A stretch of DNA of 64,000 nt from Carex sylvatica (Eukaryota; Streptophyta; Magnoliopsida; Poales; Cyperaceae), in NCBI GenBank assembly GCA_964058845.1, contig CAXKVR010000042.1, positions 62,001 through 126,000 on the forward strand. Direction: 5' to 3'. The translations under genes and the position numbers were made by a program. Shown here in pieces: positions 45,165 through 62,247 of this stretch (positions within the stretch are counted from its first letter, which is position 1; every line of letters starts with the position of its first letter). The notes under the pieces are model-generated. The model saw nothing but the letters and a program-made list of their open reading frames with translations, was not told the DNA's origin and ran no database searches.

Positions 45165-45883
45165 GAATTATGGCGGCCTTTTTTATTAATACCCAAAAAA
45201 CAAAACTAAATTTTAAAAATAACCTTGACAAATTTTTTTTTTTTAAAATAACCCAATCGCCCGGGCCCGGGGCGGCCCAAAATACAAGCGACCCGCCTGG
45301 GCCTCGGGCGGGTCACATGGAGAGCAAATCGCTCCAGGGACGGGCGGTCCACTATGCATTCAACTACCCCCCTTCTCTGTCTTCTCTCCCTTCTCTGTCT
45401 CCCCTCCGCACCAGAAAAAGAAAGAGAAAAAAAAACGAAGTCAGAGAGCGATTTTACTGTAGCAGAAGGTATTTTTTATTTTTTTTTTAATTATAGTAAT
45501 TACTGTTCTATTATCTGTAACTACTGTAACTATCGTAATTACTGTAGCAAAGTTTTTTTTTTTCTAATTAGATTACTGTACCCGTTATAATACCATATTT
45601 CTTAATGAAAACCAACTAATTTTTTTCCATTTCTTAATTTTTTTTAATTTCATTTATTCAGAAATAATTTGATTAATTAATTATTGATTTTCAACAATCT
45701 AAAGTTCTATACATTGATTGAGTTATATATTTATCTTCTTCTTTTTCAATTTATTCAATTTTTTTTTAAAATGAAACTCAAAAATTGATTGAAGCGAATC
45801 TCAGATATCTTTATCTATTATTGATGTACAATTACTGTAATACTTATAAAATTATTTTTGAAATGTAGTTTGGTAAGGAAAAT

Positions 45884-46711
45884 ATGTTAGTTGCATTGTA
45901 TATGGGCGGCAAGTTACAAAAGAGTGAAGATGGCGTGCAGTACACGAAAGATGCTGCATTTGGCTTCGAGATTAATGAAAATACCACATTTCAGGTACTT
46001 AAAGAGCTAATATACGAAAAGACTGCTGTAAACTCCAACAGATATGAAATAGAATTGGCTACACGGATTGACAACTCACGTCGGGTGGGGGGTAGACCTT
46101 ACTTTGTGAGGTTTCCAATAACAGATGCGAATTTGTGGAGAGTTGTGTACACTCAAATTGCGGCCAGTGGGGTCCAGGTAATGGACATATATTCGAAGAG
46201 GGTTCCCCGGGCTAGGGCTGGACCTTCAAGTACGACTAGGGCTGGACCTTCAGGTTATGAAAATTCAGGTTATGACAGCCAGGGGTACCAGCAGGACTCC
46301 CCATATGACAGCCAGGGGTACCACCAGCACTCCCCATATGACAGCCAGGGGTACCACCAGCACTCCCCATATGACAACCAGGGGTACCACCAGCACTCCC
46401 CTTATGACAACCAGGGGTACCACCAGCACTCCCCTTATGACAACCAGGGGTACCACAACTCCCATGAAAATATTGAAGAGTTACCACCACCACCCAGACA
46501 GATACCCATAATCCCTAGATTTCCAACTATGCCAGAGTCAGGACCGGTACCCGTTAATCGAACTGATATTGATATTAATGTTGATGCTATTGATGTCATA
46601 CCAGAAAGGGAGATGGAAACGGGGGATGAATACCAAGGGGTTTGGGAATCTGATGACTTATCAGATGGTGATGCAAATGTACTAGGTTTCTCAGCAGGGA
46701 GAGGTACATAA
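45884..46711 (+). pseudogene. N-terminal part of a MURA-like MULE protein, no transposase core
   Basis: 275 codons. Residues 1-110 (MLVALYMGGKLQK, YVRF/ANLWRVVYTQ-type segments) resemble the N-terminal ubiquitin/PB1-like region that precedes the transposase in plant MULE proteins. An upstream exon probably exists, since an AG acceptor lies just before the ATG. Residues about 125-190 are 11-residue repeats (YDSQGYHQHSP). An acidic linker (VIPEREMETGDEYQGVWESD) follows, and the ORF stops at 46711, exactly where the opposite-strand PMD sequence ends. The DDE catalytic core and zinc knuckle are absent. The ORF itself has no stop, so a truncated protein could still be made. Confidence 0.55.
46271..46460 (+). 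repeat. 33-bp tandem repeat in the MURA-like ORF
   Basis: Five full and one partial copy of a 33-bp unit starting TATGACAGCCAGGGGTACCA, in frame as YDSQGYHQHSP. Copies 1-3 use AGCC and copies 4-6 use AACC (Asp-Ser versus Asp-Asn), so the array grew by local duplication. Confidence 0.9.
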
Positions 46712-47707
46712 TCGGGACCGCATCACCGCTGGAATCCTCGAACATGACAGCACCACACAAATCCAGCACATACGCCATAGTATACCTGCAATATAAAATA
46801 ATCAATATAAATAATTGAGATTGTTGATTAACTACTAAGTTACTTTAAAGAGTGTAATGGTACCTCCTGACCGCCTCAATGTCAGCAGTCTCAGGAAATA
46901 TCTGATTCTGAAAGAAGTGAGACCGGAGTGCCTTTAGAGAAATACAGTACCCAGAATACCGGAACTCCTCCTCCTCCTCCTCCCCCTTCTTCTTCTTCTT
47001 CTTCAATTTCTTCTGCAGATTCTTTGGATCACACCCTAACAACTCCGGTATCATCCTCTGCAGGTTTGGATGGTCTGAGGTGCTACCTATGGGCTCACCA
47101 TCAATGGGTAAACGCCATAATGCGCTCACATCACCAAGGGTGACTGTCATCTCCCCGACCGGGAGATGAAATGTATGGGTCTCAGGTCGCCATCTCTCCG
47201 CTAGACCATGCATCAGAGACTGATCGATCTTACTCTGCGGCATAGTGGCAAGCTGATACAACCCAAGGTTCAAGAGGCATCGCTGCATTTCTTCATGGGG
47301 GACGAACGGAATCTCAGACCTGCGGTGCCTCACCGTAAGCATACATCATCCTGTATTTATTATCAATTTATGAGACTCAAATCGTGTCATTTTTTTAGTA
47401 TTATTTATTTACATTAAGTATAAAAATCACGTACCTCAAGAGATGCCAATGAGACGCGGTGCTTAACGTGATGGGTCCATAGAAGAGGACTAAATGTATC
47501 AGGATCATGCGCACCATATGTTAAACCAGCCTGAGAACCCGCTCCAATCGGATCCTCATATGACGACGGACCCTCTCCAATCGGATCCACCGAGGACGTG
47601 CCCGCTACACTCGGATCCACGGCATCTGGACCCGCTGCAGCCGGATCCGCTGCAGCCGGATCCGCTGCAGGTGCAGCTCGTACTCCCCATCGTCTAGATC
47701 TGGGCAT
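46700..47707 (-). pseudogene. Plant mobile domain (PMD, MAIN/MAIL1-type) gene, truncated and frameshifted
   Basis: Homologous to the intact gene in the 52-58 kb element. Exon 1 is 47435-47707 (start MPRSRRWGVRAAP, Ala/Asp/Pro-rich, ending HHVKHRVSLASLE). Exon 2 is 46864-47350 with the PMD signature GLAERWRPETHTFHLPVGEM and LGDVSALWRLPIDG. Exon 3 starts at 46785 (AYVLDLCGAVMFEDSSGDAV) and runs out near 46700, where it meets the MURA-like ORF. Exon 2 is one base short of the phase needed, just after its acceptor, giving a frameshift. A low-complexity insertion encodes runs of Lys and Glu (46960-47030). The rest of the domain is deleted. Confidence 0.85.
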
Positions 47708-47719
47708 ACTACATTTACA

Positions 47720-49240
47720 AAAAAAATCCATATTAATCAACCACAAATTTTAAAAATTAAAATTAATTCAAAATTCTAAACAATTTATAAATATTTTCAA
47801 CCAAATTCAAACCCTAATTGAACTGCAAATTCAAGCAATTAAAACCCTAAAATAGTGAATTATTTATAATAAACTACTAATTATATGATATTAATACATC
47901 CAATAATTATACAATAACTATAGTATATATTTAATATATTAAGAATATACCATATTAATTTAGTAATAACAGTTAACAATCCGTAAAATAATCAATAACC
48001 ACATGAAAATAATAATAATAATAAAGGTACATAAAATTTTATCATACTATGAAATTCAATAAACTTTTATATAGTATGAAATTCACTTTTTAAAATAAAA
48101 ATTATTGTGAAAATCGACAAACAAATAAAATTTGGAAAAAACATAAGTATGCATATATTTTTTTTAAATATTGATAATTTACTTGCAAAAAAGATTGTAA
48201 TTTTTAAACAAATTTTCATATACTTTAAAATAATTAGTCAAATACATAAATTATCTATCTACGATCTTTTCTCAAAAAAAAAAATAGCTTTTATAATTTT
48301 AATAATTTTAATAGCATTTATAATTTTAAAATTTAATTCCGCAATTTCCGCAATTTAATAACATTTACATAATTTAATAGCATTTACATAATTTAATAGC
48401 ATTTACATAATTTAATAGCATTTATAATTAAAAAAAATACATAATTACCGCAATTATAATTTCAAAATTTAATCCCGCAATTTCCGTAATTTAATAGCAT
48501 TTATTAATAACCCCCAATTTTCATAATTCGTGACATTATACCAATTCTAACAATTCATAATCGAATCAAATTTAACAATTACACAACTTCATTACATTTG
48601 CATAAGTTACACAATCGAATAGAATTCAACAATTACACAATTTCATCACAATCGAGTCGAACCAAATCGATTTGAATCGAATCAAACCGAATCAACCGAA
48701 TCAATTCGATTTCAATAATTACACAATTTAATCACAATCGAATCGAACCGAATCGATTTTAACCGAATCGAACCTAATCGATTTTAACCGAATCGAACCT
48801 AATCGATTTTAACCGAATCGAACCGAACCAATTTTAACCAAATCGATTTGAATCGAATCGAACCGAATCAATCGAATCAATTCAATTTCAATAATTACAC
48901 AATTTAATCGCAATCGAATCGAATCGATTTTAACCGAATCGAATCGATTTTAACCGAACCGAATCGAACCTAATCGATTTTAACCGAATCGAATCGAATC
49001 GAACCGAATCAACTCGATTTCAACAATTACACAACTTAATCGCATTCAATCGAATCGAAAACTTACCCAAGAGAAATGGAGCAATTCCAACGAGGTAGAC
49101 CGCGGAGACGTGCGGATTCGTGAGCGGAGAGGTGCGAGCGAGCGAGAGAGTGAGCGAGCTAGGGAGAGGAGAGGAGTGGCGCAGCAGCGGGGGCGGGTCG
49201 GACTTGGCTGGGGCGGCCTTGGCTGGGTTTTTTTTTTTTC
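47720..49240. other. Repeat-rich upstream region of the element 1 PMD gene
   Basis: AT-rich 5' flank. Four copies of a 20-bp CATAATTTAATAGCATTTA repeat lie at 48356-48425. A long degenerate array of AATCGAACCGAATCGATTTT words covers 48640-49030. A GA/CT-rich leader-like patch lies at 49100-49200. The stops leave no plausible gene. Confidence 0.6.
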
Positions 49241-49560
49241 CTTTTTCTTCTTCTGGTGCGGAGGGGAGACAGAGAAGGGAGATGGGGAAGGGTTCACGGG
49301 ACCCTGTTTTGAATGCATAGCGGACCGCCCCCACTTCTGGCGGTTTCCTTCCCTTTGGACCGCCCCCACTGCTGGCGGTTTGCTCTCTGCTGGCGGTTTG
49401 CTCTCTCCATGACCCGCCCCAGGCCCAGGCGGTTCGCTTATATTTTAGGCCGCCCCGGGCCCGGGCGGTTGGGTTATTTTAAAAAAAAAAATTAATTCAA
49501 GGTTATTTTTAAAATTTGGTTTTGTTTTTGGGGTATTAATAAAAATGGCCGGAATTATGG

Positions 49561-50245
49561 TAACTAAGTATATATTTATATATACTAAAAGTTAGTAGTC
49601 TCATTTCGAGTCATCACCATCACAGTGGCGGTTTAGAATAACAATCAAAATCAAGAGAGATCGAACATAAAGCGCAAAAATAATCAAACGACAAAAGACT
49701 AAACAATGATCAAACCAAAATGTATATCAAAGCATCATGAGTAACAAGGTTTACTGCCTAGCCCTAATACATATGCTTAGCTGCGGAACAACATGATTAC
49801 AAAAGAATAGAGGAGGGATACAATCATACACGATGTACCGGCCTAAATCTCTAAACACTCCTCTCAACTAAACTATAAAAGAAAAATATAAAGTAGATCT
49901 AAGATATCTTCTTCTTCTTCTTCAGTCGAGATGGTTTTTTATAGGAGTTAGAGGCGCTGGAGATGAGTTGGAGTCCAATGGATATGATATGGATATAGTT
50001 GGAGCAGTTATTCACTAAAGGGCGCCTCTAGTTACGGTCTGTATGGTGTGATACGGACCGTACCCATACAGTGTCACTGCTGGATTTGGCTATCTCCTGG
50101 TTCGTAATGGGCTTGAATCTGTATGAGCTCATACAACCCATAACAGGGACTTAGAACTGATGTTGCGCTTTTCTGATCGACTAAATTCTTTCTCCATATG
50201 ATGTAAAATAGCTCCAAAATATGGTCCCTGCATCAAAACATAAAT
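49561..50245 (-). repeat. LTR-like relic, opposite orientation
   Basis: On the minus strand it starts near TGATGCAGGGACC, contains CTCCTATAAAAAACC as a TATA-like site followed by a leader-like region, and ends in the sequence adjoining the MULE target duplication. The style is that of a Ty3/gypsy LTR, but no internal domains accompany it. Confidence 0.35.
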
Positions 50246-52186
50246 TGTAACAATAGTAAGCAGATTAATTAATTAATTAATTAAACATAAATGTGAAAAA
50301 ACAAGAAAAAATCTAAGCTAAAAGCCTAAGTAATTCGTCATAAATATGGCTTGATCAATAATTGAATCAATTTTACAGTACACATTGCATTTACTCTTAA
50401 ATTATATACAAAATCACGCACAAGTACACAAATTTTAAAAAATATATGGGATCAAATGACCTCCACATTTACTATATATGAATCTGCTTCTGACTTCGAT
50501 ATTCTAATGGTCATGTTTGGTTGTGGAGTAAGTAATGGATTAAATCCTCTACTCTACTTTTAAGAAGTCATGTAAGAAGTAAATGTAAAAGAATAAGATG
50601 AAATAACATTTGAGAGCTCAAATTCGGAGTAAATTATTCTCTCTTTAGATGGAGTAGCTTACATGTGAATCTCATAATTAGTGTAATATCATGTAATAAT
50701 TTTCTCTTTCTTTGTGAGGTTACTCCACCAAACTTTAACTAAATATAATTATTTTAATCTAACTTAGATCGGAGATAAGTTTGAAATTAAACCACCTATC
50801 TAAGTCAACTTATTTCACCTATGAAATCCATTCTCATAGAAAATAATTTTTAGATTCGTCTCTTTTCTTCAAAGTGAAATTTAACTCATGATTAAAAAAA
50901 ACCAGTTGAATCAAACAAGAATAGTGTAAGTATCACCTAATATCTCCGTTAATATTTACTGTGATCTAATGTATATTATTTATAGATTAATCAGATATAT
51001 GCTTTTCATAAATGTAATATAATAGACATTGTCAGAATTCCGACAGACGTGGTCTTTTTTTTGCAATATAATAATATATATATTTTTGCAATTGTGGAAA
51101 GGTCCAAGTCAACATTTCGATCTCGTGCAGGATAGTGGTTCATTACCAAAACAATTTCTTAGACAAAACATGAACTAAACTTGATATTTTATTTTTATTT
51201 TTTTATAAATTTTCCATGGCGAAAGTCTCGTTGGAACGCTACAGAGTCCGTATTCGTGCATAGTATACGGTACTGTACCGCTTGCTTTTACCAACTGTTC
51301 CCACTAACAAAAAATAAGGAAAAAAGAATATGGAAACGCCTTTTCTAATACAAAAGTTTAAAGCCACTAGAAAAATATACATGCTACTAACATGCAATAG
51401 AATGATTATTTTGCAATTTGCATCATTTTATTCATTCGATTGATTCATAAAGATTTTTTGCGTGGCAAGGCAATGACTCGATAATTAGTAAGACTTACAT
51501 CATAGTAAAATGATTTCATTTTTTTTTATTTTAAAAGAGCTTTGTAATAGCCAAACTTTCCTCATTTAATGAATAAATAAATGCCGATCATGCGGTCATT
51601 ACCTTTAATGAAAAGACTCAATGAAATTAATTAAATGAGCTGTCAATTGCCGATGATCTCATCTTTGAACAGCAAAACAATAAAAGAAAACATACCATAA
51701 AGGCCAGAGTAGTAGTACAAAAAAGGAAAATAGACTATGTCTAAAAGTAAAAAATATAGTAAAAAATATATTGAAAATAAATTGTCTTGATTAAGACTCC
51801 AAATGACAAAACATATTATGATGATGTCCAGCTCGGAACAAAGGATTAGAGCATCTCAGTAAAATTAAGAAGAAGAAAAAATTAAACACAGCTGTTAAGT
51901 ACTATATAAATATTAAAAATCATTTCTTGTTTAGTGCAAAAGGGTAACTTTCTCAGTATGGGAGATATGGATTAAAAATCCAGATGGAAATCTTTTGTGG
52001 ACAATGAAATTTGAAAAGCAAAATCTTCATCTTTCTCTTTAAAAAAATACAAAATAAAGATTAATAAAAAAATACAAAATAAAAATTAAGTTAATTTAAA
52101 ATTTTAAACCTCTACACTCCTGCAATAACTTTTAATTACTTTTAACAGGCACGTCAATAATTATTATTACAAAAATAGAGCACGGA
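50246..52186. other. Intergenic, no gene recognised
   Basis: AT-rich with stops in all frames. (TTAA)n at 50266-50284 and an AT-rich run near 51060-51080. No family recognised. Confidence 0.5.
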
Positions 52187-52271
52187 ACAAAAGCCGACAT
52201 TTTTAAAAATACCCAAAAAATAAAACAAATTATTAAGAATAACCAGTTTCTGAGAAGATTTTTAAAAATGC

Positions 52272-52339
52272 CCAAACCGTAAATATTCTGTACGGTTTGG
52301 AATTTTAATTCCAAACCGTACAGAATATTTACGGTTTGG
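52272..52339. repeat. 68-bp near-palindrome, left end of element 2
   Basis: CCAAACCGTAAATATTCTG reads into its own reverse complement around an AATTTTAATT centre. The same palindrome is at 58124-58191 in the right TIR. Its half-motif ACAGAATATTTACGG also ends each of the adjacent tandem repeat units. Confidence 0.9.
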
Positions 52340-52343
52340 TTTT

Positions 52344-52375
<32 letters not shown>

Positions 52376-52383
<8 letters not shown>

Positions 52384-52487
52384 TTTAGGGTTTAATGGAA
52401 TTTAGTTTAGTTTGTGTTTGGAGATTATGTTATTCAGTTTGTTTGTGATTTAGATTAGTTTGAATTGTTAAGTTACAGAATATTTAC

Positions 52488-52529
<42 letters not shown>

Positions 52530-52633
52530 TTTTGGGTTTAATGGAATTTAGTTTAGTTTGTGTTTGGAGATTATGTTATTCAGTTTGTTTGTGATTTAGA
52601 TTAGTTTGAATTGTTAAGTTACAGAATATTTAC

Positions 52634-52677
<44 letters not shown>

Positions 52678-52781
52678 TTTAGGGTTTAATGGAATTTAGT
52701 TTAGTTTGTGTTTGGAGATTATGTTATTCAGTTTGTTTGTGATTTAGATTAGTTTGAATTGTTAAGTTACAGAATATTTAC

Positions 52782-52825
<44 letters not shown>

Positions 52826-52929
52826 TTTAGGGTTTAATGGAATTTAGTTTAGTTTGTGTTTGGAGATTATGTTATTCAGTTTGTTTGTGATTTAGATTAG
52901 TTTGAATTGTTAAGTTACAGAATATTTAC

Positions 52930-52975
<46 letters not shown>

Positions 52976-53079
52976 TTTAGGGTTTAATGGAATTTAGTTT
53001 AGTTTGTGTTTGGAGATTATGTTATTCAGTTTGTTTGTGATTTAGATTAGTTTGAATTGTTAAGTTACAGAATATTTAC

Positions 53080-53120
<41 letters not shown>

Positions 53121-53343
53121 TTTAGGGTTTAATGGAATTTAGTTTAGTTTGTGTTTGGAGATTATGTTATTCAGTTTGTTTGTGATTTATATTAGTTTGA
53201 ATTGTTAAGTTACAGAATATTTACGGTTTTTTTTTTTGTTTTTAAAGAGGGTTTAGGGTTTAATGGAATTTAGTTTAGTTTGTGTTTGGAGATTATGTTA
53301 TTCAGTTTGTTTGTGATTTAGATTAGTTTGAATTGTTAAGTTA
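52376..53343. repeat. Seven ~148-bp tandem repeats with poly-T tracts
   Basis: Units start at about 52376, 52522, 52670, 52818, 52968, 53113 and 53244. Each opens AAAGAGGGTTTAGGGTTTAA (telomere-like; copy 2 has GGGTTTTGGG) and runs through a conserved ~110-bp body. All but the last end ACAGAATATTTACGG followed by a T tract. Nearly all length variation is in the T tracts. Confidence 0.95.
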
Positions 53344-53371
53344 GAGGTTTGTATGAATTGTTTGGGCCTAG

Positions 53372-53715
53372 AAGCACTCCTTCAGTAGTTTCGGCAATTT
53401 TTGAGAGATGATATCTCACGATCTGTTTTGAGATTTTGTATGAAACTTCATAGTCTTGTTCTACGATGTTAAAACTGTATGTTGGTCAATTTTTATAATT
53501 TTTAAAGATGTCTTGCTATGTCAACCAGAGGTGCAAAGTTGGGCTCATAAGCACTCCTTCAGTAGTTTGGGTAATTTTTGAGAGATGACATCTCACGATC
53601 TGTTTTGAGATTTTGTATGAAACTTCACAGTTTTGTTCTACGATGTTAAAACTGTATGTCGGTCAATTTTCATAATTTTTGAGAGATGATATCTCACGAT
53701 CTGTTTTAACCAGAG
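53372..53715. repeat. Two-copy ~175-bp direct repeat
   Basis: AAGCACTCCTTCAGTAGTTT begins each copy (about 53372 and 53550), followed by GAGAGATGA(T/C)ATCTCACGATCTG and TACGATGTTAAAACTGTATG. A third partial GAGAGATGATATCTCACGAT occurs at about 53680. It contains a small ATGATATCTCA near-palindrome. Confidence 0.85.
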
Positions 53716-53885
53716 ATACAATTGTTTACGGTTTAGGTAGTGTTTCTCTTATTATTTTTTCTGTTGTATAAATACTACCATAAAATATATCTAAGATAAT
53801 AACATAAATCATAATAAGCTATCAGCGTACATAATACATAATAAAACATAAAACACTACAAATAAAACTATAAAAAAACTCTCTA

Positions 53886-56701
53886 TCAACGATACCGCGA
53901 ATCAGAATATCGGTCAGCTGGTCTGCCTCTGTTCTCTCTGATGAAAACTCGATGCCAGTTATTCCACTGTATTTCTCCTTCTTGCGCCACACGAGCTGGT
54001 GTGATCTCGACCTCGGGCTCAGTCTCTCTGCTCATCGTGAGTGCTGTACCCCATGGATCCTCGGCGGCGTGTGTAGCTGGCAGAGGGGTATGAAACAAGG
54101 ATAAGTCAGGCTGAGTCCCACTACCAGAGGCCTCCCAATCATGAGCCCTCGCTGGATACGGCTGACGCGGAGAGGCGGCTGTATCCCACTGATCATCTCC
54201 AACTAGATCTGCAAGGCTCAAACTGAAGCTGTCATCCTGCGTATGATGGATCCCCGGAGACTCATGCTGCTCATGTGGCTCAGGCGGTGGCGGCATGTAG
54301 GAAGGACCCTGCAAGGATACCAATAAATTAGTAAACTTTAACTATCTTGGCTTAAAATAAAAGAAGAAATTTACTAAAGTACGAAATTTTATCTTGATCT
54401 AAAATAAAATAAAGATTTACATACCGGGGGAAGAACTGGTCGTCCATGGGCGTCAAGATAGCCATGCCAACCGGACATACCATATACCCAACGATGGTAG
54501 TCCCACTCCGGCTGCTCGTGGGGTGGCGATGGCATCTGAGAAGCCATAACAGGTGGCGCGTCGGGCTCGTCCTTTTGCACTTTGCGCCAATCAATTTCCT
54601 CTCCAGCGTCTCGTAGCATGGTGACTAGCTTAGCGGACTGGCCGTGGTCATCAATGCATGGGGCAACCAAGTTCAACACATAATGCCCAAATGCTCTATA
54701 TCCGCGTTTTCCAAGACAAACGATTGCATGCCCGGCACTTTTAATCGATAGTAGCAACTAAAAAAACAAACAAACTTAGATAAAAAAAAGTTATGAAAAA
54801 AGTTAGATTAGATAAAAAAATGTGTTATTGTAGGTGCATTACCTGGCGAGCACCTTTTCGGCCAGTGGGGGTATAACCATCATCGTCGAAGATCATGGAG
54901 CGAAGAAAATTGCCGTAATCTCCCTCTATATACACTGATGCCATGCAGATCCGCTGGTACCAAGCCTGATATCTCAATAAGGGATCTCCCTGGAACTGCA
55001 TCCCATCAGTCTCCGGAATCTGCCACAAGTTGGCACTCATATTTGCTGCCCTGTTGTAGTGCTCCGAGTGATACTCACTCCAATCTCTATTGTGGTGATT
55101 AACATGGCTTATCCTGTAATTAATATATTAGTCGCAATTTAAATCCAAGAACCAATGTTAAGTACAAAAATGCTAAAGAGAACATAACTTACCCGTGTAG
55201 AGAAATAATCACCGATCTCGGGACATCTGGATCTGTGGGGATGAGTGCAGGATATCGAAACTGACGGGACACCCGGTCTGGATAGTGATGCTCCACTATC
55301 CAGAAGCACACCAGAGGACCCCTGTACAGCCACATATCATGATCATCTGCTACAATCTGCGGCAGCCTCCCCTCAGTGTATAACTCATGATACGGATCCC
55401 ATATCACTTGCGTCTCACCCAGACTCTGAATCTGAGTTCGGACCACCCTGATACCTACTGACTTTCCGTGAGGGTTGTCCTTGTAGAAGTGATGTCCGTA
55501 CCATTTCATGCCAAATGCCGGACAGTTTCCATTATCAGGCTCTCCCCATGGATCCTCGTTCGGCTCAGGTACCCCCACCGGTAGCCGTGACCATGACCAA
55601 TGCTGCAGTAAAAGAATTGGCCCATAGATTTGCTTACTTTTCAACTATAATTGGAAGAATATTAGCCGTCAGGGACAAGTTGAATAATTAAAATAAGACA
55701 ACAAGTGCATGACAAGTTAAATAATTAAAATAAGACAAAAATAGTATACTGACCTTGCAACAGTGGCACAAGTTGGAGTAAAGATGTGCTAGGACCGCCC
55801 CACCCAAGTTGTACCTGCTCGACGGCTGAAGGTCTCGCAGCAGCTCTAGATACATCATCGGGATGGTATCACCGGTCGAATCAGCAAACATGACAGAACC
55901 AAATAGGTCCATTACGAAGCCCCGTGTGTATCTGTAATATCAAAATTACAAAACAACTCATTTTCGGCATGAAATATAGTAAAAAAAATAAATGTAATAC
56001 GAATATTTTGTATGAGTACCTCTCAATCTCGAGCTCAGTGGAATCACTACCCAGACCTCTCCTAAACATAGCTCGCAACTTTGCCTTGTCCATACAGTAC
56101 TTGGACCTCCCTCCATTGCCGCGTATATCTGGCTCAGCTCCCAACAACTCTTCAAGCATGTAATTAATCGTGTTGTCATCGGTGGGGTCAGATATGCCAC
56201 CAACGGGCACGCCCTGGATAGGCAAACCCCACAGGGCACTGACGTCCTGGAGAGTCACTGTCATCTCTCCGAAAGGTAAGTGAAACGTGTGCGTCTCGGG
56301 ACGCCATCGCTCCACTAATCCTGCAATGAGGGATGCATTAATGCCCTTACTCTCTGACTCCAGAATATCGACCAAATGTTGCAACCCCAAATTTTGCAGA
56401 TATGGCTCCATGAGCGAGTAGTACTGCATGTCGTAATGCCGACTCCTGACAGTAATAATTGTCTCACTCTGCGTTGAAAAAAGTAAACAATATGAAAACC
56501 TAAAAATACGAAAAACTCAACAAAATTTAAACTTAAAAGATAAAAATAAAAGTAATAAAGTACCTCTTTAGATGCCAGTGAGACTCGATGCTCATTGTGA
56601 GGCATCCATAGTAAAGGACTGAAATGGTCATTGCTATTACTGGGAATGGGCTCATCAACCGGGTCGGCTACGGGTGGTCTCCTAGGCCGTCCTCTAGCCA
56701 T
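53886..56701 (-). CDS. Plant mobile domain protein (MAIN/MAIL1 / PP7-long-form type), 747 aa, apparently intact
   Basis: Seven exons: 56564-56701, 56020-56468, 55754-55931, 55193-55644, 54843-55113, 54425-54757 and 53886-54308. All have GT/AG borders and compatible phases; the total of 2244 nt is 747 residues plus stop, with no internal stop. Exon 2 has the PMD signature GLVERWRPETHTFHLPFGEM and LQDVSALWGLPIQG. Exon 3 holds RYTRGFVMDLFGSVMFADST. Exons 4-5 hold the aromatic-rich downstream half (LLLQHWSWSRLPVG, NRDWSEYHSEHYNRAANM). Exon 7 is a Pro/Glu-rich tail ending DRYSDSRYR. In Arabidopsis, PMD proteins MAIN and MAIL1 are nuclear and act in silencing and genome stability; many PMD genes sit in transposons. 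Here the gene is the sole cargo of a Mutator-like element, so a transposon-linked role is more likely than a host one. Confidence 0.9.
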
Positions 56702-57233
56702 CCTAATTGCAATAAAAATATGCTAAACCAAATAAAAATATACTCAAATATGCTAAAATACGCTAATTGCACTAAAAATATTTATGAACAACCGTAAAAA
56801 TAAAAGTAATATGATATTTAATATTTAATAATAAACTAAAATTTAAAGTAATATTATATTACATTTAATATTTAATTTAATATTATATTAAATTAATATT
56901 TAAAGTAATATGATATTTTATATTTTATATTTTATTTAATACTAATCTATATTTTAAAATAATATTATATTTAATTTAATATTTAAATTAATAGTTTATT
57001 TAAAACTAATCTAAGAAAATTACCGTAAATCAAGATTAGCTCATTGTTGGTAGATCCAAACGCAACCTTATAGTATGCTTAAAAAAATTAACACTTTATC
57101 TAAAAAATATACATAAAAGGTAAATTGGTTTTGTGCATAATAAAAAAATTGTAAATTTTGTTTGCATCATATGTGCACTTAAATTGACTTGATACCCGAC
57201 TCAACATGCAATATAACCACATCCGATCTAACA

Positions 57234-57660
57234 AATTCAAGCACAATTACAATTCAACCAATTCAAATTTATCACCAATTCTAATAAATTCAAGCACAAT
57301 TACAATTCAACCAATTCGAATCTATCTCCAATTCTAATAAATTCAAGCACAATTACAATTCAACCAATTCGATCTATCACCAATTCTAATAAATTCAAGC
57401 ACAATTACAATTCAACCAATTCGAATCTATCTCCAATTCTAATAAATTCAAGCACAATTACAATTCAACCAATTCGAATCTATCACCAATTCTAATAAAT
57501 TCAAGCACAATTACAATTCAACCAATTCAAATCTATCACCAATTCTAACAAATTCAAGCACAATTACAATTCAACCAATTCGAATCTATCACCAATTCTA
57601 ATAAATTCAAGCACAATTACAATTCAACAAATTCGAATCTATCACCAATTCTAATAAATT
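57234..57660. repeat. Eight 53-bp tandem repeats upstream of the PMD gene
   Basis: Units carry AATTCAAGCACAATTACAAT followed by TCAACCAATTCGAATCTATC and CACCAATTCTAATAA. The GCACAAT word recurs every 52-53 bp (57241, 57294, 57347, 57399, 57452, 57505, 57558, 57611). Confidence 0.95.
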
Positions 57661-57694
57661 CAACCAATTTAACCAATTCTAACAAATTCAAAAC

Positions 57695-57780
57695 CCTAAA
57701 CCCTAATTCCTAATTTAACCCTAAACCCTAATTTAACCCTAAACCCTAAACCCTAATTTAACCCTAAACCCTAATTCAAA
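57695..57780. repeat. Telomere-like / telo-box cluster
   Basis: Six or so AACCCTAA / CCCTAAACCCTAA units separated by TTTAA. Plant telo-box motifs of this kind are common in promoters; this one is about 1 kb upstream of the PMD start codon, followed further out by a GC-rich leader-like block (57830-58080). Confidence 0.8.
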
Positions 57781-58123
57781 ACTCTAATCGAATTTTAATG
57801 GCACTCAAAACTTACCCGAAATTTTCAGTCGAGAATACGGCGGAGTCAGTGAGGAGCACGAGCGAGCAAGAGGGAGAGGAAGGAGAGGCAGCGGGAGGGT
57901 GGCGGCGAGGGAGGGGAAGACCCGGCTGTGAAGGGGCGGAGGGCCGGAGCCTTCTGGGGTGGAGCCTTCGCTTTCCTCTTCTTTTCTGGCGGAGCGACGA
58001 AGCAACAGAGAGGGAGAAATATTTGGCGGAGCGACGGAGAAACAGAGGGAGAAGAAGGGGTTACGCGGAACCCTATTTAACAGCCGGAACCGTAAGGAAT
58101 ATATACGGTTTGGAGTTAAAATT

Positions 58124-58191
58124 CCAAACCGTACAGAATATTTACGGTTTGGAATTTTAATTCCAAACCGTAAATATTCTGTACGGTTTGG
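58124..58191. repeat. 68-bp near-palindrome, right end of element 2
   Basis: Counterpart of 52272-52339, lying about 80 bp inside the right TIR end. A further imperfect copy of the half-site (CCGTAAGGAATATATACGG) precedes it at about 58089. Confidence 0.9.
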
Positions 58192-58278
58192 GCATTTTTA
58201 AAATTTCCCCCAGAACCCGGTTATTATTAATAATTTGTTTTATTTTTTGGGTATTTTTAAAAATGTCGGACAAAAGCC

Positions 58279-60029
58279 AATACAAACAATTAAAAAGGGA
58301 TTCTTACTTTATTAAAAATTACGCTACGTCTCAAAAAATAAAAATAGAAAAATAACAGCGTACTTTTAGAAATAAAAAAAGGACCAACACAGATGCTATT
58401 AGAAGATTTCAATTCAATTCAAAGTTTCAAACAGAAGCTTAAAAGAGACGAGACGATTAAATCAAGCCCAAATATGAAATTTTCAGTAATATATGGGCCT
58501 TAAGTTGAATAAATTGTAACAGAAAACAAGGCCTTGTTTGGATCAATCCTAAACATAGCCTAGGTCCCTCTTTTGTCAGACTTCACTGAAAAAATCATAC
58601 TTTTATTTGCACAACTGCAAAGGCATCATAATATTGGATCAGAACTCTTTTCCAGGGAGCGGGGGTGTCCGATGTCCATCAGACTGAGTTCGGTCCGATG
58701 GGCAGACTAAACTGTCCGATTTTGATTTTGTGATCGATCACTTGATTAGCGGATTGCGTACCAATACTCGGATTTGAACCCGTTATCTCCGTCTGAATAG
58801 AAGCAGACATTTAATATTCTTTTTCTTCTCCCAAATTGACCCCTCCCCCCATCACTAGAGTCCGTATCCTCTGAGATATCTCATATTTTTGTGTGACCGA
58901 CGTGTCCGGTTCCTATTCGGGGATTCGCGCAGAACGTATTGCAACGGTTGAGATTTTTCAACGCAAAATATGAGATATCTCTTTTTTTGAAAACCCGTAG
59001 CTATCAGGAAAAAAATATGAGATATCTGAGAGGATGCGAATTCCCTTCACTAACTCTATTCGCCCCCACCCCATCTCTCTAATTTCTACGGCATACGACT
59101 ATGAGGGCGACCCGCAATAGAATGTTCTCTTACCTCCACACATGACCATCTGACCCGAAGTCGTTGAACACTTCTAGCGCAAGTTCTACCATCGATAGAT
59201 CGTAATATACTCCACTCCCGCTTTTCTCTAATGATTCAGTGTGTGATTTTGAATTTGAATGCTGGGTTTTGGGTAGAAAAGGCTAGAGGCTCTGACTGTT
59301 ACCTTGACCTAATTCTAACTATTACCAGATTATAAGTGCCTTGATTGGTTGGAATTTGAGCTTAGAAGTGCAGGGTTACGTAGCTTAATTTCTAAATATT
59401 AAACCAGACACATTCTGTGGTATATGTTGATGTCATTGACACTATTTTAATGCGATTGTTTTTATGAACTTAATTTGGAGAAATGTTAAAACATGAGGCA
59501 TTACATAAATGCAAAATATTACATTTTACTTGAGTAAGCTATAAAGTAGCAAGATGCCTTAGTTTAAGAAAAAATAGAAAACTGGAAAATTGGAAACTAT
59601 AGTTGTTTTACATATATATAAGTCATCTTAAAGCATAATTTATAGAAACTTCATCTTCTAAATTTTTTACTTTATTTTTCATGTTTACTTGATATCATTA
59701 GGACCCAGATACGGTGGTTGAAGTGTTGATAGCGGGACCTGCATTAACATTGACTAGTGAATTAAGTTTTAGACCGCATTCCTCAAGTCAAACATTTTTT
59801 TAAGTTTTAATTCTCAATCAATTTAAGCTCTGAAAAACATAAGGAAAATAAATAAGTAGATAAATTAATTTGTATAAACCTAAAATTTCATACAATAATG
59901 ATCATTGTACATATTTTTTTTCTCCTTTATATTACTAAATTGGACTTACTTTTTTTTATTGTTGTTTACTTTACAGGTCCAGAGAAGTAGAGTGATTAAA
60001 TTGTACCATGATATATATATTTTTATTCA
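58279..60029. other. Intergenic with a small foldback at 58858-59048
   Basis: No gene recognised. A ~190-bp foldback has inverted arms containing ATCCTCTGAGATATCTCATA / ATCCTCTCAGATATCTCATA followed by TTTTT. A third AAATATGAGATATCTC lies between them at about 58970. The remaining sequence is AT-rich with stops in all frames. Confidence 0.6.
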
Positions 60030-60391
60030 GCTATTTGTCCGAAATTTTTAAATATACTATTATTTCAAAATTAATAAACCAAAACGTTATTTTTGGCTGA
60101 GAATTATAAAAATGACATGGCCGCTGCTTAGGAAAGCGGGCAAGAAAATTGTGCCGCTTCTAGGCCCAGTGGCCATGGCCGCTTCGTGGGACAGCTGGCA
60201 CCCCAAGTCGGATCTACCCATAGATGAGGACAGCGGGTACCCCACGTCCAGCTGGCATCCGCTACCAACCTACTCATAGCTGAGGAGCATTGTCGCATGG
60301 ATGTACCGCCAGTGTAAGAATCTCTCTTTTTTAATGTCTTTATTGAATGGATGAGACGTCGCATGGATGACTTATTTTAAAAAAAATACAG

Positions 60392-61430
60392 GCCTTATAG
60401 AGATTGGTATCAGGAGTGTGGCGCATACACGGTGTACTTAGAGGGGTGTATCACCGACAACCCTCACGAGCGCGCACCGAGGCCGAGGGATCTGAGATGA
60501 CGAGTTCATGGTATCATTCTAGCTGGTGCACCGTTTGCATCTGCGGTATGTTTACTTTAAAAAACTTGTAATATTTACATCTGTACAACATTTATATATT
60601 GTTTTACTTATATTTTTGCAGGCCTTATATCTGGTGAAGAGCTGTGTCATAGCGGCAATAATGGCCACAGTGCGAGGCTGGAAGAGACTTGGGAAAGCCA
60701 TTCTCAAGCACAATGTACCTGCAGTCTGCCAATGTGGGTACAAGACGTGCCTTGACTCTCTCATGAGATGTGCAGGATTGCCTGGATGTGATTAGATTGA
60801 TGACATATTGGATGAGCCTGATATCTACGTCCGATACGCTGGTGACGAGGCATTGTGGGCTTCAGTCCATGATGCTCAGATTGTCGGTCAGGCATTCGAC
60901 AGAGAACAAGAGATGCTTAGGAGGCGCGCCGCAGAGCAGACTGACCCTAATCAGGAGCAGGCCGTCCCAACTCAGGAGTAGATCTCTACTCAGGCATTTC
61001 CTATGTAGGTAAGTTTTTTTTAAAATATACAGCTTGTGCATTTAAAAAAAAAAATTACATAACTTGCTTGTAGGAGGACGATGGACTGGGCTTCAATATC
61101 GACCCAGATCCCGATGGTTTGTATTTTCTGAGTTATGATCCGACTCAGTCGATGCCTCCTGCATATCTACTAGGGTTCACTATGCCGAACCCCTTTTCGC
61201 AGTTTCCTGGCAGCTCACAGTCGACGTAGTATCCTTCCATTCCAGACTTTCCTGGCACCTCCACATAGTATCCTCTCGTCTCGTACTTTTCTAGTATCTC
61301 CATGGATGATCCTATCATGAGAGCTGCCTACGATATGTTACTGACGGTTGAGTCTGGACAGACAGTTGTATTTGGGCCTACAGTCCAGCAGACAACCGAG
61401 ATTGAGGAGGTTCAGGCCGCATAGTTAGAT
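60392..61430 (+). pseudogene. Probable PMD-family remnant
   Basis: AG-bounded stretches in order: AYRDWYQECGAYTVYLEG (from 60392, compare RYQAWYQRICMASVYIEG in exon 5 of the intact gene); VIAAIMATVRGWKRLGKAIL ... GYKTCLDSL (60622-60793, position of exon 6); an Asp/Glu/Gln-rich stretch to a stop near 60981; and a Pro/Ser-rich tail with YDMLLTVESGQTVVFGPTVQ (61320-61424). Stops interrupt several of these. The PMD signature exon itself is missing, so the family call leans on order, the first stretch and the element type. Confidence 0.45.
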
Positions 61431-61443
61431 GATTCTCTCGACC

Positions 61444-61771
61444 TAGGGGTGCAAACGGATGCGGATCGAATAGTGGTGAAACCATATTCGTATCTACTTT
61501 TAATTTTCAGATACGGATACGAATCGGATATTAGACGGATACATACGGATATGGATCGGATAGCGGATATCCGTAGATGTATATATAAATATTTTCATAA
61601 TTTATGGTAAACTATATGATATATATCTACTATTCGGATACGGATAATTGAAATTCAAAACCATATCCGTATCTGTATCTGCACGGATATTCGAATATCG
61701 GATATCCGTATCTAATTTTTGGATACAGATGCCGATACGGTCGGATAATATCCAACCCATTTGCACCCCTA
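61444..61771. mobile_element. 328-bp hAT-type MITE nested in element 3
   Basis: Ends TAGGGGTGCAAAC and GTTTGCACCCCTA-like (right end TTTGCACCCCTA) with the perfect 8-bp target duplication TCTCGACC at 61436-61443 and 61772-61779. The interior is rich in inverted CGGATAT/ATATCCG words. Non-coding. It interrupts the decayed coding tail, so it is younger than element 3. Confidence 0.93.
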
Positions 61772-62247
61772 TCTCGACCACACGCCACTCAAAGTACAGA
61801 TTCAGGGTTTGAGGGCCAAGAGGGCGAGGCAGCCATTCAGTCCATCTGACTTTTAGGTTGTAGTTTATTTTTGTACTTTTTTTTACTCTAGTGTTGTCAG
61901 ATACTGTGATTTATTATATCATGATTCTTATTTTTGTCAGATACAGTTTATTTATTGTACTATTTTACTTTTATCTTTCATCATTTTTTTGTCACAGTAA
62001 ATCTAAACGTAACGATTTTTAAAACAAACAAAAAAACAACAAATAAATCAAAACACACCTGTCAGAGTGGCTGCTGCCCCCAGAAGCGGTCCAAGAATAG
62101 TGGTCGTTTGGCCTAGAGGCGGGCATCTGAAAGGTGGTCGCTTCCCCTAGAAGTGGCCATATCAAATTTGTAATTTCTCCAGAAAAATGGCGTTTTGATT
62201 TATTTATTTTGAGATAATGGTGTTTTTAAAAATTTTGGGCTATTTGC

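Follow-up and report, generated by a model that had tools for sequence, protein, structure and literature searches.

The 64-kb window analysed here (G000:C42:62001-126000, from a 64-Mb assembly of 950 contigs of Carex sylvatica) contains three Mutator-like elements (MULEs) bounded by terminal inverted repeats (TIRs), each of which belongs to a separate family that we denote TIR1, TIR2 and TIR3. E1 (window positions 45174-49551) and E3 (60039-62238) are internally deleted MULEs, and E2 (52194-58269) carries only a PMD gene. When the left end of each element was compared by blastn with its reverse-complemented right end, the TIRs matched at 237 of 336 positions in E1 (71%, 58 gaps, E 7e-51), 126 of 146 in E2 (86%, E 2e-41) and 127 of 183 in E3 (69%, E 3e-21), confirming the three TIR-bounded elements that a preliminary description of this DNA had proposed; its claim that the TIRs of the first two are related also held, as E1 and an E2 sibling have 45 bp in common at 84%. 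The target site duplications (TSDs) of about 9 bp that it assigned to each element were recovered for E1 (GAATTATGG at 45165-45173 and 49552-49560, 9/9) and E3 (GCTATTTGT at 60030-60038 and GCTATTTGC at 62239-62247, 8/9). For E2 we find instead a 7-bp duplication, ACAAAAG (52187-52193 and 58270-58276, 7/7), adjoining symmetric CCGAC...GTCGG ends, since the ACAAAAGCC previously claimed requires unequal ends. A chance origin of the TIR and duplication matches was rejected, given the blastn alignments, the element borders in the window and the TSDs of the TIR1 pairs described below.

E1 retains parts of two genes. On the forward strand, an N-terminal remnant of the MURA transposase (275 aa, 45869-46693, within an open reading frame [ORF] at 45869-46711) is 96.7% identical to the 711-aa MURA ORF of L061, a 9.9-kb relative on contig C149 that has E1-type TIRs and a TSD matching at 8/9. 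On the reverse strand (46686-47707) is a truncated PMD gene consisting of its first exons only, recognised by PF10536 (E 1.2e-24 in the ORF at 46845-47345), by exon landmarks and by a deletion junction near 46686-46699. On its forward strand L061 carries the MURA ORF and another ORF, which has a SWIM finger; convergent to them, on its reverse strand, are the PMD exons, interrupted by one stop and one frameshifted segment. E1 aligns with L061 over its left 1.5 kb (95.8% identity) and its right 2.9 kb (91.3%), with about 5.5 kb between these absent and 14 bp shared by the alignments where they meet; a single deletion therefore took the 3' parts of both E1 genes. The MURA remnant also contains an in-frame tandem array of a 33-bp unit (46271-46456, 5.6 copies), which encodes an 11-residue repeat and is present in L061 as well.

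E2 contains a complete PMD gene on the reverse strand (53886-56701), whose seven exons (56701-56564, 56468-56020, 55931-55754, 55644-55193, 55113-54843, 54757-54425 and 54308-53886), separated by six GT-AG introns, form one open frame encoding 747 aa with a strong PF10536 match (E 2.5e-68). Siblings on C184, C212, C99 and C8, which are 5.3-6.3 kb long with both TIRs and 9-bp TSDs (by eye), and one on C405, which is cut by the contig end, carry this PMD at protein identities of 86-97%. Searched by tblastn with three MURAs, E2 gave no match, and no MURA match was found in the copies on C184, C212, C99 and C8. Since these five copies share the arm between the TIR and the 3' end of PMD, MURA would most simply have been lost once, before they spread. 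A more distant element on C506 (8238-18684), with TSD TTCGTACCT, is identical to the E2 family over the first 27 bp of its TIR and carries a 665-aa MURA ORF together with a convergent PMD, which has two in-frame stops under the E2 exon map.

E3 holds broken C-terminal exons of a PMD gene (60390-61430, forward strand), identified from their reading frames, a 56-aa exon and comparison with a relative, L069 (C8:469380-476800). The 56-aa exon is 86% identical to C8:472243-472410 within L069, where the exons upstream of it are PMD. L069 is 7.4 kb long and has E3-type TIRs, with PMD on the forward strand and a MURA remnant, detected by tblastn, on the reverse strand, both broken by stops; E3 matches it at 87% and 92% DNA identity and has kept the TIRs and the PMD C-terminal exons. 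A PMD domain within E3 was rejected, as neither of two ORFs scanned matched PF10536 and the E2 PMD protein gave no tblastn match at E 0.01; none of the three MURAs gave a tblastn match in E3 either. What links E3 to PMD is the exon that it has in common with L069. E3 also carries a 328-bp insertion (61444-61771), absent from L069, with ends TAGGGGTGCAAA.../...TTTGCACCCCTA and an 8-bp TSD, TCTCGACC; we take it to resemble a hAT-type miniature inverted-repeat transposable element.

Internal deletions gave rise separately to E1, E2 and E3 from three two-gene MULE families, in which MURA and PMD face each other between the TIRs, as they do in the convergent arrangements of L061, the C506 element and L069. 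Their TIRs and duplications are those of MULEs, and E1 and E2 carry PF10536 within their TIRs, in a gene that is antisense to MURA in these three relatives. In agreement with the preliminary description, none has a full transposase: tblastn found no MURA with a MULE domain in these deletion derivatives, only the N-terminus in E1, and the domain (PF10551) is present in their relatives L061 (E 1.2e-11) and L066 (E 1.2e-17). The view that their cargo is PMD rather than MURA fits E2 and has to be modified for E1, where the MURA N-terminus lies beside the truncated PMD. Descent of the window copies from elements that always lacked MURA was rejected on the basis of this remnant and of the comparisons with L061 and L069.

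We then asked how the two genes are distributed over the assembly. Only the best-scoring candidates were evaluated (40 of 210 for TIR1, 40 of 394 for TIR2, 150 of 305 for MULE, 117 of 610 for PMD, a set that does not include the window's own PMDs, and 40 of 207 for the repeat unit described below), and copy counts are therefore lower bounds. A PMD lies within 10 kb of 87 of the 150 MULE matches, in convergent orientation in 84 cases, divergent in two and tandem in one; the other 63 have none within that distance, including 29 of the 30 best-scoring. PMD is a common partner of MULE transposases in this genome. Among 15 TIR1 pairs, PMD is present in 12, one of them E1, and three have neither gene. 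All 12 also show a sign of MURA, eight through a listed MULE match and four (E1, C140, C69 and C221) through a MURA N-terminus found by tblastn. Of 12 TIR1 pairs compared for their TSDs, again including E1, seven have 9/9 and two 8/9 by script, C137 has 9/9 by eye, and C69 and C344 are without. The TIR2 family comprises 16 pairs, of which five including E2 have PMD and 11, only 0.98-1.87 kb long, have neither PMD nor MULE; no MULE match was found in any of the 16 among the matches listed. Besides E3 there are nine TIR3 pairs, and a PMD C-terminal exon is present in one, L069, which also has MURA.

PMD disappears together with MURA in small copies and outlasts it in the E2 family. These counts make PMD a partner that usually decays with MURA and not a general outlasting payload, so that the earlier proposal of a PMD kept while the transposase was lost describes the E2 family (5/16 TIR2 pairs) and fails for TIR1, where PMD is accompanied by MURA in 12/12. 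A majority of copies without PMD, which the preliminary description had named as evidence against its proposal, is indeed seen in TIR2 (11/16) and TIR3 (8/9), though not in TIR1 (3/15).

Selection on PMD was measured among E2-type copies with plain Nei-Gojobori dN/dS, which gave 0.29-0.34 among E2, L062 and L065 and 0.61 for L063 against L064. Because methylated transposons mutate C to T, we also computed a context-matched omega, in which the observed changes are re-dealt among sites of equal base and CG/CHG/CHH context; among E2, L062 and L065 it was 0.42-0.49 (p 0.0015-0.007, the pairs not being independent). Of the 17 PMD genes of the TIR1 family, seven have a frame open over 799 codons; omega among the 21 pairs of these seven was 0.15-0.81, many close pairs having too few changes for significance. 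The six comparisons of L011, L013 and L015 with L016 and L017 gave 0.15-0.22 (p at most 0.003), whereas ten pairs of five decayed copies, used as a control, gave 0.66-1.31. The TIR1-family PMD is therefore under purifying selection, and the E2-type PMD probably was under some constraint after the loss of MURA.

A possible function is suggested by structure. VANC proteins bind short motifs in the non-coding tandem repeats of VANDAL elements and induce loss of methylation (PMC5735166, PMC10398659), and VANC21 has been solved with its target DNA (9lnj). Predicted structures of the MULE-borne PMDs have the VANC21 fold, and so does the model of a host PMD, Setaria MAIN-LIKE 1. At the sequence level, a DUF1985 search admitting E-values up to 10 listed 25 of 64 PMDs (best E 2.9e-4), with L001 scoring 12.2 bits against a cut-off of 35.1; PMD's own model fits far better. 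With DUF1985 matches below the cut-off and a better fit to its own model, PMD would be a relative of VANC and not a VANC. In L072 (G000:C170) a 104-aa ORF has DUF1985 and PMD matches over one stretch (70924-71145), a possible sequence bridge between the two. The fold match lends real but indirect support, from models, to the idea that PMD protects from silencing.

The best protein matches of the E2 PMD come from Carex. In a tree of 43 proteins, PMDs from four of this genome's MULE families fall together with the Carex sequences and one further sequence, within the monocot part; P0002 from Carex joins the TIR1 PMDs (100/100) and P0001, also from Carex, joins E2/C506 (92/71), while several long branches are unsure and the Setaria sequence falls outside the part that holds this genome's MULE PMDs. 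This topology suggests that the MULE families predate the split from the Carex source of P0001 and P0002.

Tandem repeats occupy part of most of these elements. E2 contains an array of period 148 (52346-53343, 6.9 copies), in the arm where its C506 relative has MURA, and a 53-bp minisatellite in the opposite arm (57227-57663, 8.3 copies). As found by Tandem Repeats Finder (TRF; period 10 or more), arrays cover 20% of E1, 29% of E2, 11% of L061, 30% of the C506 element, 13% of L070, 24% of L062, 8% of L063, 18% of L064 and 20% of L065, against 0-2.3% in four 10-kb control blocks of the window; repeats in non-coding arms, as in VANDAL elements, are thus a feature of these nine elements or element loci (8-30%) and not of E3 or L069. 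The repeats are family-specific, a CGAATCGAACCGAATCGATTTTAAC array in TIR1 and a unit of about 177 bp in E2/C506. Genome search and unit alignment place two copies of the conserved part of this unit in E2 (53396-53510 and 53571-53690, within 53396-53690, forward strand), seven in the C506 element (77-78%) and further ones in four E2 siblings; E1, E3, L061, L069 and L070 gave no match. Of the 11 TIR2 pairs without genes, at least seven have the unit (C118, C16, C246, C25, C40 and C473 by genome search, C684 by unit alignment), and among the best 40 of 207 unit matches it was not seen in C170, C276, C49 and C6. That a non-coding unit is retained in copies which have lost both genes suggests that it functions in cis, and the unit is a candidate target of PMD.

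Two gene-less TIR2 copies of about 1 kb, L074 (C16:291760-292800) and L075 (C684:10165-11225), are fold-back elements: each is built of two inverted copies of the left arm of E2 and has one repeat unit per half, in inverted orientation. At least two units per strand lie within about 1-2 kb on C22, C28, C79, C130, C167, C170, C177, C188, C377 and C448, which suggests many more fold-back copies.

We propose that PMD plays in these MULEs the part that VANC has in VANDAL MULEs, an explanation that we judge, as a whole, somewhat better than even. The PMD protein would bind family-specific repeats in the non-coding arms of its own elements and lift host silencing at those sites, allowing a MURA encoded in cis or in trans to act. 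E2-type elements would have given up MURA and continued to supply PMD, and gene-less copies, which keep the TIRs and an arm, often with a repeat unit, would be mobilised by both proteins in trans. The chances seem evenly balanced for the broader proposition that PMD and VANC form one family, with MULE PMDs acting as sequence-specific anti-silencers of their own non-coding repeats, MAIN and MAIL1 using the same fold so that host and transposon work in opposite directions, and E2-type elements supplying anti-silencing without a transposase.

Several observations weigh against this proposal. Fold likeness does not establish function, and host PMDs work the other way, in silencing. Foldseek comparisons of the PMD models with VANC21 give E-values that exceed 0.001 and TM-scores of at most 0.43, identity over the fold is 7-9%, PDB sequence searches with PMD did not find VANC21, and no PMD reaches the Pfam cut-off for DUF1985. 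The selection data are uneven: pairing E2, L062 or L065 with L063 or L064 gives a context-matched omega of 0.59-0.85 (p 0.0015-0.22), L063 against L064 gives 1.0-1.05, and stops number none in E2, one each in L062 and L065 and four each in L063 and L064, so that two of the three constrained copies have one. Tandem arrays are absent from E3 (0%) and nearly so from L069 (0.6%), some fall in coding exons, as in the MURA remnant, and many copies of the ~177-bp unit lie outside the loci checked for TIRs.

It is also conceivable, though unlikely, that PMD is an accessory of transposition, a second gene comparable to mudrB that aids MURA in cutting or integration and has no silencing role. Its convergent place and its constraint would follow from such a role, as would the tight pairing with MURA (84 of 87) and the constraint in TIR1 elements with both genes; against it, PMD shows constraint in E2-type copies after MURA loss and is missing near 29 of the 30 best-scoring MULE matches, although these may be host genes, and the one solved structure with a clear likeness in fold is that of an anti-silencing protein. 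Rather improbable, in our view, is that the MULE PMD is a MAIN/MAIL1 mimic that poisons the complex these form with PP7L, relieving silencing without binding element DNA: a counter-silencing role for PMDs encoded by transposable elements (TEs) has been put forward in a review (PMC8616336), and MULE-borne and host PMD models have a common fold, but the family-specific repeats and the unit retained in gene-less copies are left unexplained. That PMD is a captured host gene without element function, its open frames merely recent and E2 a passive passenger, is very hard to credit: MULEs do capture genes (PMC5418596), most E2-type copies are decaying and several close TIR1 pairs lack significant constraint, but context-matched omega is under 1 within the E2 trio and in comparisons across TIR1 subclades, against about 1.0 in strongly decayed controls, and PMD is paired with MURA in several diverged families.

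The VANC-like reading can be set beside systems already described. PMD genes, often antisense, are tabulated by Dupeyron et al. 2019 for the plant MULE groups MUDR, MUDRAVI2, MDR, MULE-Monocots and MULE-Solanaceae_1 (PMC6446971). The TIR1 and C506 elements resemble these groups in their SWIM-finger MURA, 9-bp TSD, long TIRs and antisense PMD, a fit judged by these features; the E2 family differs in having become PMD-only after what was most simply one loss of MURA. With VANDAL21/VANC21 of Arabidopsis they would share a second protein of the same predicted fold and tandem repeats in non-coding parts; however, that protein is here a PMD and not DUF1985, at 7-9% identity, and anti-silencing is attributed to it by analogy. 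Ikeda et al. 2017 describe MULE-PMD fusions in grasses and Amborella and offer anti-silencing as speculation (PMC5418596). There too PMD is tied to a MULE transposase, whereas here it is a separate convergent gene. MAIN and MAIL1 have the same PMD domain, and the Setaria MAIN-LIKE 1 model a VANC21-like fold, but unlike MULE PMDs they are host genes, required for TE silencing (PMC7156037, PMC5418596). In light of Dupeyron 2019, Ikeda 2017 and the review PMC8616336, the architecture was already known and the idea of anti-silencing already published. As far as literature searches tell, the connection of PMD with VANC in fold and sequence, a PMD-only subfamily whose PMD is constrained and the shared repeat unit are new, although the paper describing 9lnj may anticipate the fold link.

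PMD is referred to as a domain of unknown function (PMC7156037, PMC8616336), and the match to the VANC21 fold makes its function directly testable. If the proposal is true, it would explain the frequent association of PMD with plant MULE transposases, and silencing by MAIN/MAIL1 and counter-silencing by transposons would be connected through one fold. In the E2 family PMD was probably kept under some constraint after MURA was lost, a hint that the protein may favour the element copy encoding it.

Among the MULE matches, nine are equal-scoring, in L070 (C35:127800-135785) and on C190, C321, C387, C584, C665, C700, C843 and C877. Each is a 900-aa open frame with a convergent PMD, L070 reaching the contig end, and the nine loci reflect either a recent burst or an assembly effect.

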